From IMG/VR virus record IMGVR_UViG_3300035183_000407, positions 1-22,251 of that record: a DNA stretch of 22,251 nucleotides; one strand, given 5' to 3'. Below the pieces are notes generated by a model. It did not search any database. It saw only the letters and a program-made list of their open reading frames with translations, and had not been told where the DNA came from. This stretch comes from a virus. Shown here piece by piece: positions 4,703 through 15,432 of the stretch (positions are counted from its first letter, which is position 1; the number at the start of each line of letters is the position of its first letter). Both the position numbers and the translations under genes were made by a program.

Positions 4703-6056
4703 TGGCGTTGTCGGTCGGGGTAGGGATTTGGTCCAGGGTTAGGCCGAGTTCTTCCATTTTTCGGCGCTCGCGGGCGATTTGCTCTAGGGCTGTTTCCCAG
4801 TCTTGGCCGGTGCGCGCATACTCCTGGGCGAGTGTGGTTGTGAGGTTGCGTAGGCGTATGGCTTGGGCTGTGGCTTCTTTGGCCGGGTCAACATGTTCGT
4901 GGCCGTCGTAGTACCAGAGCGGGTCGGCGCGGCGTAGCTGGAGGCGGTCGTAGGGTGGCGTAAGTAGTAGTTCGTCGAGCCAGGCGCGGAATATGGGGCC
5001 TAGTACGTGGCGCTCCAGTCGGGCGCGGTCGCAGGCTAGGCGTCGCTGGAAGGCTTGCCAGTCCAGGCGGCCGGAGGCGTAATTGTGGCGGCTGCTGTCT
5101 CCGGTGAGGACGTTGATTGGTAGGGTCAAGGCGCGGCTGATGGCGATGAGGGTCTCGCGGATAAAGTCGCTGTGTTGCGGGGTGGGTTGGGTGGGTTGCA
5201 GCTGGGCGATCTTCCATCCGGCGGGTAGTGTGAGCATTGCGCCGCGCTCGATGGGGATGGTCTCCCAGGGGGCGGCGTCGGGTGCGTTGGGGGGCGGTGT
5301 ATCAGTGTAGAGTAGGGCCGATATTTCGGCGGCGGTCTCGGCGGTTTGCAGTACGGCGGCCGTGTATCGTCGGAGTGTGGCGAAGAGGGACAGTACTGGG
5401 GCGAGTTCGGATAGGCCGCGGAGTTGTTCGGGGCGTGTGGGGTGGTAGTAGTGGATGACGCGGTCCGCGGGCAAGGTGATGGTGGTGTTAGGCAGTGGGG
5501 GCAGGTCGCCAGGGTGGCGTTGGAGGAGGCGGTAGCGGGTGGGTAGGCCGTGCTGGTCGTAGTCGATTCCGTCGGCGGGGTCGTTCCAGCGCGTGGGGTC
5601 GGTGAACCGGTCGGCTTCGAGCGGTCGGATTCGTAGGGTCGGCGATAGGCGCTGGTCCGTCTCCAGGATAGCGAAGGCTTCTCCGTCGACTACTCGGGCG
5701 CGGACGATGGTGTATAGGGTCTCGTGTAGGCGGGTTTCGTTGTACCAGTCGGTCCAGGCTTGCTCGATGGCCTGGGCGGCGGCGGGTTGATCGGGGGCGT
5801 CGATTTGCAGGACTAGCTGGCGGCCGAGGAGGTACTGGGTGTAGGTCTCGACGAGGGCGTATGCGTAGGGGTTGTTGTGGTATTCGTAGCGTGCGCGTGC
5901 GCGGATTTTTTGCCTTACGGAGGGCGTCAGTAGTGCGTTGGCGCTGAGCTGGTCGGCGCGGTTCCAGTGGCGGGACGTGTCGTCGGCTATGTCCAGGCGG
6001 GCCAGTACGGGCCTAGGTGGGCGTCTGGTCAGTAGGCGTCGGATCCATGCGATCAT
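4692..6056 (-). CDS. Portal protein
   Basis: This 454-aa protein would form the dodecameric vertex ring through which DNA is packaged. Family-like features are an N-terminal basic segment (IRRLLTRRPP), 'VRQKIRARARYEYHNNPYAYALVETYTQYLLG' (short form: RARYEYHNNPYA...LLG) and 'VDGEAFAIL'. Near residue 330 a typical 'GDSSRHNYASGRLDWQAF' stretch occurs, in which N-Y-A-S is the near-invariant portal core. Length is close to lambda-type portals. It lies between the gpW-like protein and the protease-capsid fusion, the lambda order A-W-B-C. The start at 6056 follows the gpW stop by 5 nt. Confidence 0.92.
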   Translation of the reverse strand: MIAWIRRLLTRRPPRPVLARLDIADDTSRHWNRADQLSANALLTPSVRQKIRARARYEYHNNPYAYALVETYTQYLLGRQLVLQIDAPDQPAAAQAIEQAWTDWYNETRLHETLYTIVRARVVDGEAFAILETDQRLSPTLRIRPLEADRFTDPTRWNDPADGIDYDQHGLPTRYRLLQRHPGDLPPLPNTTITLPADRVIHYYHPTRPEQLRGLSELAPVLSLFATLRRYTAAVLQTAETAAEISALLYTDTPPPNAPDAAPWETIPIERGAMLTLPAGWKIAQLQPTQPTPQHSDFIRETLIAISRALTLPINVLTGDSSRHNYASGRLDWQAFQRRLACDRARLERHVLGPIFRAWLDELLLTPPYDRLQLRRADPLWYYDGHEHVDPAKEATAQAIRLRNLTTTLAQEYARTGQDWETALEQIARERRKMEELGLTLDQIPTPTDNANES

Positions 6057-6061
6057 GTGGG

Positions 6062-6259
6062 CTAGTCCGTGGCGGCCGGTGGGGACAGTTTGCGCCAGCG
6101 CAGGGCCTGGGTCGGGTCATCGGCGATTTTTGCCGCGCGGGCGTACTCGTCCAATTGCCGCAGGTCGGCGGCGTCTCTCTCCGTCTTGGTCGTGCCGTCT
6201 ACGGTGACGGTCTTTGGCTGGCGGGCCAGGTCGGCGATTTCGTCGGGCGTTAGGCTCAT
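6062..6259 (-). CDS. Small head-tail adaptor, gpW-like
   Basis: This 65-aa protein lies between the large terminase and portal, the position of lambda W. It begins with an acidic helix (MSLTPDEIADLARQ), a short strand hairpin around 'KTVTVDGTTKT', and a second helix (ERDAADLRQLDEYARAAKI). Helix, beta hairpin with a 'V..DG' turn, helix is the gpW arrangement. In lambda this protein enters the capsid after DNA packaging and seals the connector. Its size is close to gpW (68 aa). The call rests on order, size and secondary-structure pattern. Confidence 0.7.
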   Translation of the reverse strand: MSLTPDEIADLARQPKTVTVDGTTKTERDAADLRQLDEYARAAKIADDPTQALRWRKLSPPAATD

Positions 6260-9816: not shown

Positions 9817-10814
9817 TGGGCGGGTCGGTAGTAGATGTGCTCGGTACGGCGGATAACGGTTTGGTCTCCGCGGAGTGTGCTTGTTAGGGTGCGGGATTCG
9901 CTGGCGTATCCTGCTTTGTCTAGTCGTGCTAGTGCGGGGTGGTCGTAGGTGGTCAGTATTACCGCGCCGCGTAGTTGGGTGAGTAGGGTTATCAGGCGTT
10001 CGTAGTGGCGGTTGGAGAATTGGTGGCGGTAGATGTCTTTCACGCGGGTTGGGTAGGGCGGGTCGACGAAGTGTATGGTGCGGCGTCCGTCCCAGTGTTT
10101 GAGGAAGGCTAGGGCGTCGGTGCAGTCGATGTAGGCGTTGCGTAGGCGTTGGTGGTAGGGTGTCAGGTCTGTTGGCAGTTGTTTGGGTCTGCGGGGGTTG
10201 TAGGTTGGGGTGCTTAGTTTTGTGCGGAAGGCGAGGTTGTAGAAGGTGATGGTTGCCCAGGCGATGTCGAGGGGGGTCGCGGGGATGCGCTGCTGGGTGA
10301 TTAGGTGGGCTAGTCGGAAGTGTTTAGGTGTGATGGGGGTGTTTTGGAGTCGGTGTTGGAGTTGTTGGCAGGCTATGGGGTCGGCCAGGATGGTGTAGGT
10401 GGTGGTTAGGTGGTGGTCCAGGTCATTTAGGGCTTCGATGGGGTGCGGTGGTTTTCTCCAGTAGACGGCGAGGGCTCCGGCGTAGGCTTCGGTGTAGGTA
10501 GTGGCTTTCGGGGCTATTTGCTCGAGTAGGGCTATTATTCGGGGTGCTGTCCGCCATTTGCTGCCGGTGTAGCGTATCAGCATACGGCGTGGGCCGTCGC
10601 TGGAAACAAAGTCGGACGATTCGCGCGGGTCTTCGGGTTGGGGCGGCGGGCCTGGGGTGGCGGGGAAGTACCTATCGGGTCCCAGCGACATGTCGCCGTG
10701 TGGTGCGTGGTTCTGGGTGTTTGTTGGGGTTGGCCGTGCGTCGGCGTGCGGCGACATGTCGTTGTATGGCGCGGTAGGCAGCGGATCGGGTGCGGTATCG
10801 GCGGGGTAGTCCAT
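9813..10814 (-). CDS. DNA adenine methylase, D12 class (Dam-like)
   Basis: This protein would transfer a methyl group from SAM to N6 of adenine in DNA. The conserved domain begins at residue 78 (ATG 10583) with MLIRYTGSKWR, the usual N-terminus of this family. Motif I follows as TEAYAGALAV (108-117), then an ALNDLD acidic segment (128-133) and the catalytic DPPY at 251-254. The longer frame from 10814 adds a 77-residue P/T-rich, low-complexity extension and overlaps the upstream gene by 143 nt. GGAG precedes 10814 by 10 nt, so the long form is possible, but the short form is the normal family length. The target site cannot be read from sequence; the protein may protect phage DNA from host restriction. 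Confidence 0.88.
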   Translation of the reverse strand: MDYPADTAPDPLPTAPYNDMSPHADARPTPTNTQNHAPHGDMSLGPDRYFPATPGPPPQPEDPRESSDFVSSDGPRRMLIRYTGSKWRTAPRIIALLEQIAPKATTYTEAYAGALAVYWRKPPHPIEALNDLDHHLTTTYTILADPIACQQLQHRLQNTPITPKHFRLAHLITQQRIPATPLDIAWATITFYNLAFRTKLSTPTYNPRRPKQLPTDLTPYHQRLRNAYIDCTDALAFLKHWDGRRTIHFVDPPYPTRVKDIYRHQFSNRHYERLITLLTQLRGAVILTTYDHPALARLDKAGYASESRTLTSTLRGDQTVIRRTEHIYYRPAQ

Positions 10815-12788: not shown

Positions 12789-13193
12789 TTAGCGGCGCGG
12801 GTCGGGCAATTTTATCGTGTCTGATGTGGTGATTGAGATGAGGAGGTGGCCGTCTGCTGTCCGACGAAAATCAAGCGAGCGAAGGGGCTTTTCGGCGGAC
12901 GTGTCGACGAGGTAGACGGCTTCGATCCGTCCCCCGCGCTCGTGTTGCGCGAGCAGTTCGCCGTTGGCGACAGGCTCGGTGATTTCTTCGTTTCTGGTGC
13001 GGTACGACAGGTGGGGCAGTCGGCGCTTGGACAAGTAGCGCCATTCCCCGTCGCGCCATACCATGCGATGCGTCTCGTGCCCCGTCTTTAGGCTGGTCGA
13101 ATAGTGGCGCCATGAGGCGCGCACTTCGACGCAGTCTTGGGGGTCGATGGGTTGCTGGCCGAGGGCGATCTTTTGGGCGATTGTTAATTCCAT
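12789..13193 (-). CDS. Moron-encoded protein of unknown function
   Basis: This 134-aa protein belongs to no family I recognise. It has a helical N-terminus (MELTIAQKIALGQQP), a central charged section with paired Trp/Arg (RMVWRDGEWRYLSKRR) and a beta-rich C-terminal half (RIEAVYLVDT, then HLLISITT). There is no signal peptide or membrane segment. AGGAG sits 6 nt before the ATG. It stands alone between a consensus promoter and a strong terminator. Its base use differs from the neighbours: a sample line (12901-12960) has G and C nearly equal on the + strand (21 and 19 of 60), versus 29 and 12 in a tail-gene line (841-900). It uses more E, K and V. These are signs of recent acquisition; defence, counter-defence or exclusion roles are typical of morons but unproven here. 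Confidence 0.8.
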   Translation of the reverse strand: MELTIAQKIALGQQPIDPQDCVEVRASWRHYSTSLKTGHETHRMVWRDGEWRYLSKRRLPHLSYRTRNEEITEPVANGELLAQHERGGRIEAVYLVDTSAEKPLRSLDFRRTADGHLLISITTSDTIKLPDPRR

Positions 13194-13289: not shown

Positions 13290-13317
13290 ATTATATCAGA
13301 TCGACATAAGGTGTCAA
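13290..13317 (-). promoter_or_regulatory. Promoter Pb with operator, for the moron gene
   Basis: Perfect hexamers TTGACA (13317-13312) and TATAAT (13295-13290) are separated by 16 bp. The sequence TATATC-AGATC-GACATA (13292-13308) is a one-mismatch copy of the operator found at Pa and Pd. The start of transcription should fall near 13283. Confidence 0.85.
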
Positions 13318-14713: not shown

Positions 14714-14726
14714 TGTTTTCTCCTTT

Positions 14727-14743
14727 CATTTCCGATTGATATA
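14727..14743 (-). promoter_or_regulatory. Degenerate operator upstream of the 14713 gene
   Basis: CATTTC-CGATT-GATATA has one full and one 4-of-6 half site compared with TATATC-N5-GATATA at Pa and Pd. A TATATC on the minus strand (14743-14738) could be a -10, but no good -35 is 17 bp upstream. Regulation is plausible; the promoter is weak. Confidence 0.45.
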
Positions 14744-14786
14744 ACGTATGTCGTGGTGTAATCGTGACAGTCTCGGGCGTGTTGGT

Positions 14787-14852
14787 ACAAGAAAAGGCGT
14801 CTAGTGGTGGCGTCGTGCGCTGTGGGTAGCGTCCGTGCCTACCACTAGACGC
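14787..14852 (-). terminator. Terminator after the DUF1874 gene
   Basis: A 12-bp perfect stem, GCGTCTAGTGGT (14797-14808) with ACCACTAGACGC (14841-14852), extends by two more pairs after a bulge and encloses a 32-nt loop with a small inner hairpin. On the minus strand it is followed by CTTTTCTTG. It closes the DUF1874 transcript before the next promoter. Confidence 0.82.
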
Positions 14853-14865
14853 GGGACAACAGTGG

Positions 14866-14947
14866 CCGCGGCGGGAAAGGGGAGGTAAACCGCCGCGGGT
14901 CACGGAGGCGCTAGTTAGGGTGGCCGCACATTAGCAGTGTGCGGCCA
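14866..14947 (-). other. Two further strong stem-loops in the 3' region of the DUF1874 transcript
   Basis: CCGCGGCGG (14866-14874) pairs with CCGCCGCGG (14890-14898). TGGCCGCACA (14921-14930) pairs perfectly with TGTGCGGCCA (14938-14947) around a 7-nt loop. Neither has a U-tract on the minus strand. With the terminator they make three tandem hairpins in the gene-free interval 14714-14985, which could protect the message 3' end or be released as a small RNA. Confidence 0.7.
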
Positions 14948-14985
14948 TTGAATTTTGGGCAGGTGGGGGTCCGCTGTCCAGGGGG

Positions 14986-15339
14986 CTAGTCGAGGCGCTC
15001 CAGGAGGCCTAGCTCCCAGTGTCCGCGGGTGATTATCTCTCGGAGTCGTCCTTTGTCGGTGGGGTCGATGCGCGGGGAACCAGGGGGCAACACGATGCGG
15101 AACACTAGGGCTTCGTCTCCTGGTTCCATCGTTATGGTGCGGCGGTCGACGATTATGGGGCGGCCGAGCAGTTCCGATAGGGCTGCGGCCGTCTCGGCGT
15201 ATCCGATGGTCGATATGGGGGCGATGGGGTCCGTCGCTAGGGCTTGCTCGTACCAGTGGCGGGCGTCGTCGGCGGTGAGTTTTGCATAGCGATAGAGTCC
15301 AGGGGCGGTTATGACCGCGCTGTTTAGGAGGTACTTCAT
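14986..15339 (-). CDS. DUF1874 / AcrIII-1-fold protein lacking ring-nuclease catalytic residues
   Basis: This 117-aa protein has the DUF1874 (STIV B116-like) signature: MKYLLNSAV start, a 'G.Y.Y..LT..DA..W' helix, STIGYAETAAALSELLG and DEALVFRI, ending ELGLLERL. Family members such as SIRV1 gp29 (AcrIII-1) cut the cyclic tetra-adenylate messenger of type III CRISPR. I start at 15339 because AGGAG is 8 nt upstream and family proteins begin M-x-Y-L-x-N; a longer frame to 15366 lacks these. Numbering matches AcrIII-1 without gaps through this region: position 47 is Tyr in place of catalytic His, 85 is Pro in place of Arg and 88 is Ser in place of Glu. It may bind but not cut cyclic nucleotide, or have another role. 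It has its own promoter, operator and terminator. Confidence 0.88.
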   Translation of the reverse strand: MKYLLNSAVITAPGLYRYAKLTADDARHWYEQALATDPIAPISTIGYAETAAALSELLGRPIIVDRRTITMEPGDEALVFRIVLPPGSPRIDPTDKGRLREIITRGHWELGLLERLD

Positions 15340-15394: not shown

Positions 15395-15432
15395 TATATC
15401 GCTATGATATACTGGGCGGGGTGGCGTGTCAA
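15395..15432 (-). promoter_or_regulatory. Promoter Pd with perfect palindromic operator
   Basis: TTGACA (15432-15427), a 17-bp spacer and TATCAT (15409-15404) read into the DUF1874 gene. TATATC-GCTAT-GATATA (15395-15411), a perfect inverted repeat, covers the -10 and start region. The TGA in TTGACA is the stop codon of the sulfotransferase, just as at Pa with the integrase. Confidence 0.82.

Follow-up and report, generated by a model that had tools for sequence, protein, structure and literature searches.

We found that the 22,251-nucleotide stretch of viral DNA analysed here (the window; positions 1 to 22,251 of IMG/VR record IMGVR_UViG_3300035183_000407) encodes a DUF1874 protein with tyrosine at position 47, where ring nucleases of this fold have histidine, and that this tyrosine marks a widespread and apparently undescribed clade. 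The window protein has the shape of the enzymes with which viruses silence a bacterial CRISPR alarm signal, and it probably sequesters the signal molecule or cleaves it by another chemistry. By the defining histidine of the IGH turn, it is not an AcrIII-1 or Crn2 ring nuclease, though it may act on the same messenger. For this fold, viral counter-measures against cyclic oligoadenylate (cOA) signalling have been taken to depend on cleavage by the histidine. A clade that is coherent, carries an invariant tyrosine and occurs both in viruses unrelated to one another and next to Card1 and Csx1 genes thus offers a natural experiment: can the fold act by sequestration or by other chemistry?

Table 1. 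Positions of the gene, its active-site codons, its flanking elements and a two-copy virus
Feature	Position	Strand	Basis or remark
DUF1874/STIV_B116-like protein, 'IGY' clade, 117 aa	14986..15339	minus	PF08960, AF2 model, Foldseek, clade
Tyr47 codon (His47 in ring nucleases)	15199..15201	minus	counted from ATG 15339
Arg90 codon, inserted PPGSPR loop	15070..15072	minus	kept in 12 PPG-form members
Lys96 codon, clade-invariant; opposite family Glu88 in one of two alignments	15052..15054	minus	alignments
Sigma-70-type promoter TTGACA-17-TATCAT, 11/12	15404..15432	minus	motif match; kept in L001
Perfect 17-bp palindrome GCGGCCACtGTGGCCGC, between promoter and start codon	15375..15391		candidate operator or 5' UTR hairpin; core kept in L001
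Non-coding 3' region, three hairpins, the last followed by CCTTTTCTT	14714..14985	minus	candidate terminator or structured RNA
His-type and Tyr-type DUF1874 genes of one virus	L059:16206-16556, 10001-10333	minus, plus	sequence

Family and fold of the window protein

The open reading frame starts with the ATG at 15339 on the minus strand, and the plus-strand frame of 14986-15339 is interrupted by stops; the first-pass annotation had given these positions with no strand, and the frame of 117 amino acids is real. The window protein matched the PF08960 profile over residues 3-82 with an E-value of 7.7e-12 and 45.7 bits, the cut-off being 26 bits, and its AlphaFold2 model, a monomer built on a 19-row clade alignment, had a pLDDT of 91.9 and a pTM of 0.84. 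When this model was compared with the PDB using Foldseek, the matches at E < 0.001 were DUF1874 structures only, namely Csx1-Crn2 (8y7f), its cA4-bound form 8y7g, AFV3-109 (2j6b), SIRV1 gp29 (6scf), STIV B116 (2j85) and ORF114a (2x4i). Structure 8y7g, which is Csx1-Crn2 H495A with cA4, was among the best matches (TM 0.76). Taken together, these results show that the gene is real and that its product is a PF08960/DUF1874 member by profile and predicted fold, in agreement with the DUF1874/AcrIII-1 fold first assigned to it.

Compared with AcrIII-1 (SIRV1 gp29, 6SCF), the window protein is alike in fold (TM about 0.7), length, the IG-[HY] turn and Arg66, and it is likewise encoded by a small viral gene. 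In contrast, it has Tyr47 instead of the catalytic His47 and a loop with P85, R90, D92 and K96 instead of R85 and E88, with 17-18% identity in the structural alignment and a weak profile match (E 0.54). Crn2, including Marinitoga Csx1-Crn2 (8Y7F/8Y7G), resembles the window protein in fold (TM 0.76) and the clade member L011 in its type III neighbourhood, whereas the window protein is free-standing and has no such histidine. The closest solved sequence by profile is AFV3-109 (2J6B, 3.2e-13), which has IGH. Csx15, a cA4 sponge or slow ring nuclease, sets the precedent that a family of ring nucleases can include non-enzymatic members (PMC13148439); unlike the window protein, it has a CARF fold and a filament mechanism and is not seen in phages.

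PADLOC labels the window family 'Csx16' (PDLC01147, 1.3e-14). We rejected this identity, which is a model name only: the same PADLOC model also matches canonical DUF1874 proteins, the window protein matched no NCBIfam model at E values up to 1, Csx16 TIGR02620 (VVA1548) included, and the genomes of four clade members likewise gave no TIGR02620 match. Where Tyr-clade genes are labelled 'ring nuclease' or 'AcrIII-1' on the strength of PF08960 alone, the label may be wrong.

Residues at the former active site

Residue 47 of the window protein is Tyr within 'STIGY', where SIRV1 gp29 has His47; R85 and E88 of gp29 are presumably catalytic alongside H47. In an L-INS-i alignment of 70 sequences, position 47 was Tyr in 26/26 clade members and His in 40 of the 44 sequences outside the clade, which excludes chance or sequencing error as the source of the tyrosine. 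The first-pass annotation had considered all three catalytic positions to be replaced. The change of His47 to Tyr is borne out clade-wide and, judged from the alignment, is the one catalytic change that is certain.

Residue 85 is Pro in both the ungapped and the gapped alignment, as first noted, but the clade loop after strand 76-82 comes in two forms. In 14 of the 26 members, it reads RLT-R-L-x-DPxxKG or close, and Arg is retained at the Arg85 place; in the other 12, the window protein included, it reads RLVLPPGSPRIDPxDKG or close and carries an inserted loop. The members of this PPG form have Pro at position 85 (once Gln), and Arg90 is present in 12/12, so that by alignment the Arg is displaced by the loop insert rather than absent. 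The reported Ser in place of Glu88 was a product of ungapped counting, since Ser88 falls within the insert. In the L-INS-i alignment, the Glu of canonical 'RLEEG' lies opposite Lys96 of 'KG', and this column is Glu in 35/44 sequences outside the clade and Lys in 26/26 inside it; in a profile-profile alignment with PTDK inserted, the canonical Glu lies opposite Asp92. The Glu88 place would thus be taken by either Asp92 or the invariant Lys96, depending on the alignment. Arg66 is found in 26/26 clade members and in 41/44 of the sequences outside. What had looked like a simple loss of three catalytic positions in this virus is instead a variant that defines a clade.

Capture or cleavage of cOA

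We favour the reading that the window protein is a counter-CRISPR sponge that binds cOA, or a very slow nuclease. Such a protein would descend from the Crn2/AcrIII-1 ring nucleases with the histidine chemistry lost; its homodimer would close over cOA, most likely cA4, and hold it, cleavage of cA4 would be absent or very slow, and the signal would be kept from type III effectors such as Csx1 and Card1, which would amount to an anti-CRISPR role. A sponge or a new activity had already been proposed for this gene and is upheld here as a reading; the sponge has independent support, in that SIRV1 gp29 lacking the histidine (H47A) still binds cA4 with a KD of about 25 nM (PMC7213978). In addition, Csx1-Crn2 H495A shows no cA4 degradation (PMC7293037), and Csx15 demonstrates that non-enzymatic cA4 sponges exist among ring-nuclease families (PMC13148439). 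We also counted for cOA capture the fold and family, Tyr47 in 26/26 members of one clade, the Arg66 common to canonical members, the L011 operon, the dN/dS of about 0.06, and the Tyr and His copies in one virus. For a pure sponge, the invariant Tyr47 and Lys96 would not obviously be needed, and type III systems produce cA4 in such quantity that sponging may be fruitless (PMC13148439). Because this invariance and the abundance of cA4 pull the other way, we give the sponge or slow enzyme somewhat less than an even chance.

The same residues would also fit a ring nuclease that is active through another catalytic set, Tyr47 and Lys96 with Arg90 (Arg85 in sister proteins), which we consider unlikely but worth weighing; that attack by the 2'-OH is retained in such an enzyme, giving a 2',3'-cyclic phosphate, is likewise a minority view. 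Tyr47, Lys96 and Arg81 are fixed in 26/26 members despite divergence to about 40% identity, Lys96 stands at the canonical Glu place in one alignment, and polar residues that stay fixed where an active site once was point to chemistry more than to drift. Such a mechanism would be chemically reasonable by the precedent of the archaeal tRNA-splicing endonuclease, whose active site consists of Tyr, His and Lys. However, tyrosine is a poor general acid, the alternative alignment puts Asp92 and not Lys96 opposite Glu, and we know of no ring nuclease of the DUF1874 fold that works without the histidine. The loss of cleavage in Csx1-Crn2 upon the H495A change (PMC7293037) also speaks against a tyrosine enzyme. 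It is correspondingly doubtful that the clade is a new ring-nuclease or cOA-processing class with a Tyr47/Lys96 site and a substrate or rate unlike that of AcrIII-1; the users of such a class would, on an equally tentative view, be viruses of bacteria and archaea plus at least one type III CRISPR operon.

Extent and origin of the tyrosine clade

From IMG/VR and a set with one genome per species, we retrieved 26 distinct Tyr47 proteins from uncultivated viruses, prophages and MAGs, which diverge down to about 40% identity; Tyr47 as an oddity of a single virus is thereby rejected. The bin labels of the contigs are Nitrososphaeria, Methanoperedens, Desulfobacterales/Desulfobacteraceae, Chloroflexota, Latescibacterota, Syntrophomonadaceae, NPL-UPA2 and Nitrospira. 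Trp29, Tyr47, Arg81 and Lys96 are present in 26/26 clade proteins and rare or absent outside. In an unrooted maximum-likelihood tree of these 26 and 42 other DUF1874 proteins, the clade formed one side of a branch with support of 100/94, and the same branch was recovered at 95/88 after the Tyr47 residue and the loop columns were removed. Repeated independent origin of Tyr47 is rejected by this single clade with and without the trait columns, and because His is nearly universal outside the clade (40/44), a single origin from a His ancestor would be the simplest reading of the unrooted tree. The deepest clade branch is L011, and the nearest outgroup in the first tree is L046, a His-type protein from a genome in the phylum of L007. 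L007, from a Nitrososphaeria MAG, and the window virus have this gene alone in common.

The scans that sampled the clade were seeded with patterns and lean towards the LNSAVI and IGY motifs, which partly helps the invariance of Tyr. When a scan was seeded on LNSAVI and GDEALVFR instead, it returned Tyr proteins only, and PF08960-seeded scans of Chloroflexota, Thermoproteota, Desulfobacterota and Bacillota genomes found no His47 protein with clade features except the sister L046. No clade member was found by tblastn in collections of named phages (50,697 records) and plasmids (72,556 records), a search that distant members could escape; the matches were His-type where read and about 29-40% identical to the clade queries. 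No description of the Tyr clade was found in the literature searched, in which the paper combining DUF1874, 'tyrosine' and 'anti-CRISPR' concerns Csm6.

DUF1874 proteins of other kinds that have no His also occur outside the clade (L051-L054). Three of them (L052, L053 and L054, from the phylum of L007) read 'ERQDTA' where the IGH turn would be, have Ser at the Arg66 position, and form a second, separate branch. Within the clade, the Tyr-type domain lies in longer open frames at L008:9614-10315 (235 aa) and L021:9515-10333 (273 aa), which may be fusions whose N-terminal domain belongs to an unknown family, or else reflect a misread upstream start.

Genomic context

The window carries genes for a terminase, a portal, a fused head protein and protease, an integrase and a Cro/C1-type repressor, and on this gene content it is a tailed virus or provirus. 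A host search with the terminase and the major head protein gave only weak matches, at about 25-31%, among them Mu-like phages, other phages and proviruses of Chloroflexota; for the head protein, Chloroflexota alone were sampled, and that search does not allow hosts to be ranked. Genes near other clade members encode, among others, terminase, integrase, primase and methylase.

In L011, the gene order is csx1, cas6, cas2, cas1, the Tyr gene, a CARF/sigma-54 gene, Card1 and a Card1-CARF gene, and the Tyr gene lies 4 bp before the CARF/sigma-54 gene in a tight operon. By its gene order, this type III CRISPR ancillary operon ties the Tyr clade to cOA, and it is the only direct link, seen within one contig and in 1/26 clade members. 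The contig has 33.8% GC and its bin is labelled Nitrospira, a MAG label that is doubtful. The same locus contains two genes, L011:370-3372 (1000 aa) and 5631-6116 (161 aa), with no Pfam or PADLOC match.

One 66-kb virus record (G1755) encodes both a Tyr and a His DUF1874 copy at a distance of 6 kb from each other, and this speaks against redundancy. Two copies suggest two targets and in this respect fit a protein that uses the DUF1874 scaffold to bind another signal or a protein partner, an explanation that we rate as rather improbable; candidates for that signal, of similarly low probability, are cOA of another ring size, nucleotides of CBASS or Thoeris, and linear nucleotides. The loop carrying Arg85 and Glu88 is rebuilt in the clade, and the mobile loop of AcrIII-1/Crn2 moves on cA4 binding (PMC10018336). 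With the loop remodelled, the choice of ligand could have changed. Arg66 and the framework are nevertheless retained, and L011 sits with the genes of the CARF proteins Card1 and Csx1, which read cOA, cA4 in known examples; both points sit better with cOA capture than with another ligand.

Selection, promoter and flanking DNA

Between the window gene and its counterpart in the virus L001, 35 codons have changed with 5 amino-acid changes (dN 0.028, dS 0.487), and the resulting dN/dS of about 0.06 indicates strong purifying selection. A non-functional, decaying ring nuclease gene, as the missing catalytic His might suggest, is rejected by this ratio and by conservation across the clade, and is made more improbable still by the near-consensus promoter kept between the two viruses; we regard decay as very remote.

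The promoter at 15432-15404 overlaps the 3' end of the upstream gene. Both the promoter and the leader palindrome are preserved in L001, while the spacer between them has diverged. The window holds a single occurrence of the perfect palindrome. The first-pass annotation had called both elements perfect and the gene the sole one of its transcript. The promoter is near-consensus but scores 11/12, and the 12/12 promoter is another (13317-13290); the palindrome is perfect and its core is kept, while its role as an operator is putative. A transcript with this one gene is plausible, since the gene has downstream of it a hairpin whose arms are 25 nt long, with CCTTTTCTT after it, although this hairpin is absent from the list of a simple terminator scan. 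Expressed from its native mid-stage promoter, SIRV2 AcrIII-1 reportedly had no anti-CRISPR effect (PMC11065993), and the strong promoter of the window gene itself may matter.

The 272-nt non-coding region at 14714-14985 (minus strand) has an MFE z of -5.8. Its counterpart in L001 is 89% identical and keeps whole blocks unchanged, and a comparison with Rfam gave no match. The region could combine a terminator with a small RNA, or be a site of attachment or packaging. The 12/12 sigma-70 promoter, which has a TG extension (13290-13317, minus strand), lies upstream of the gene at 12789-13193, and this gene is the most diverged in the comparison with L001 (69% DNA identity).
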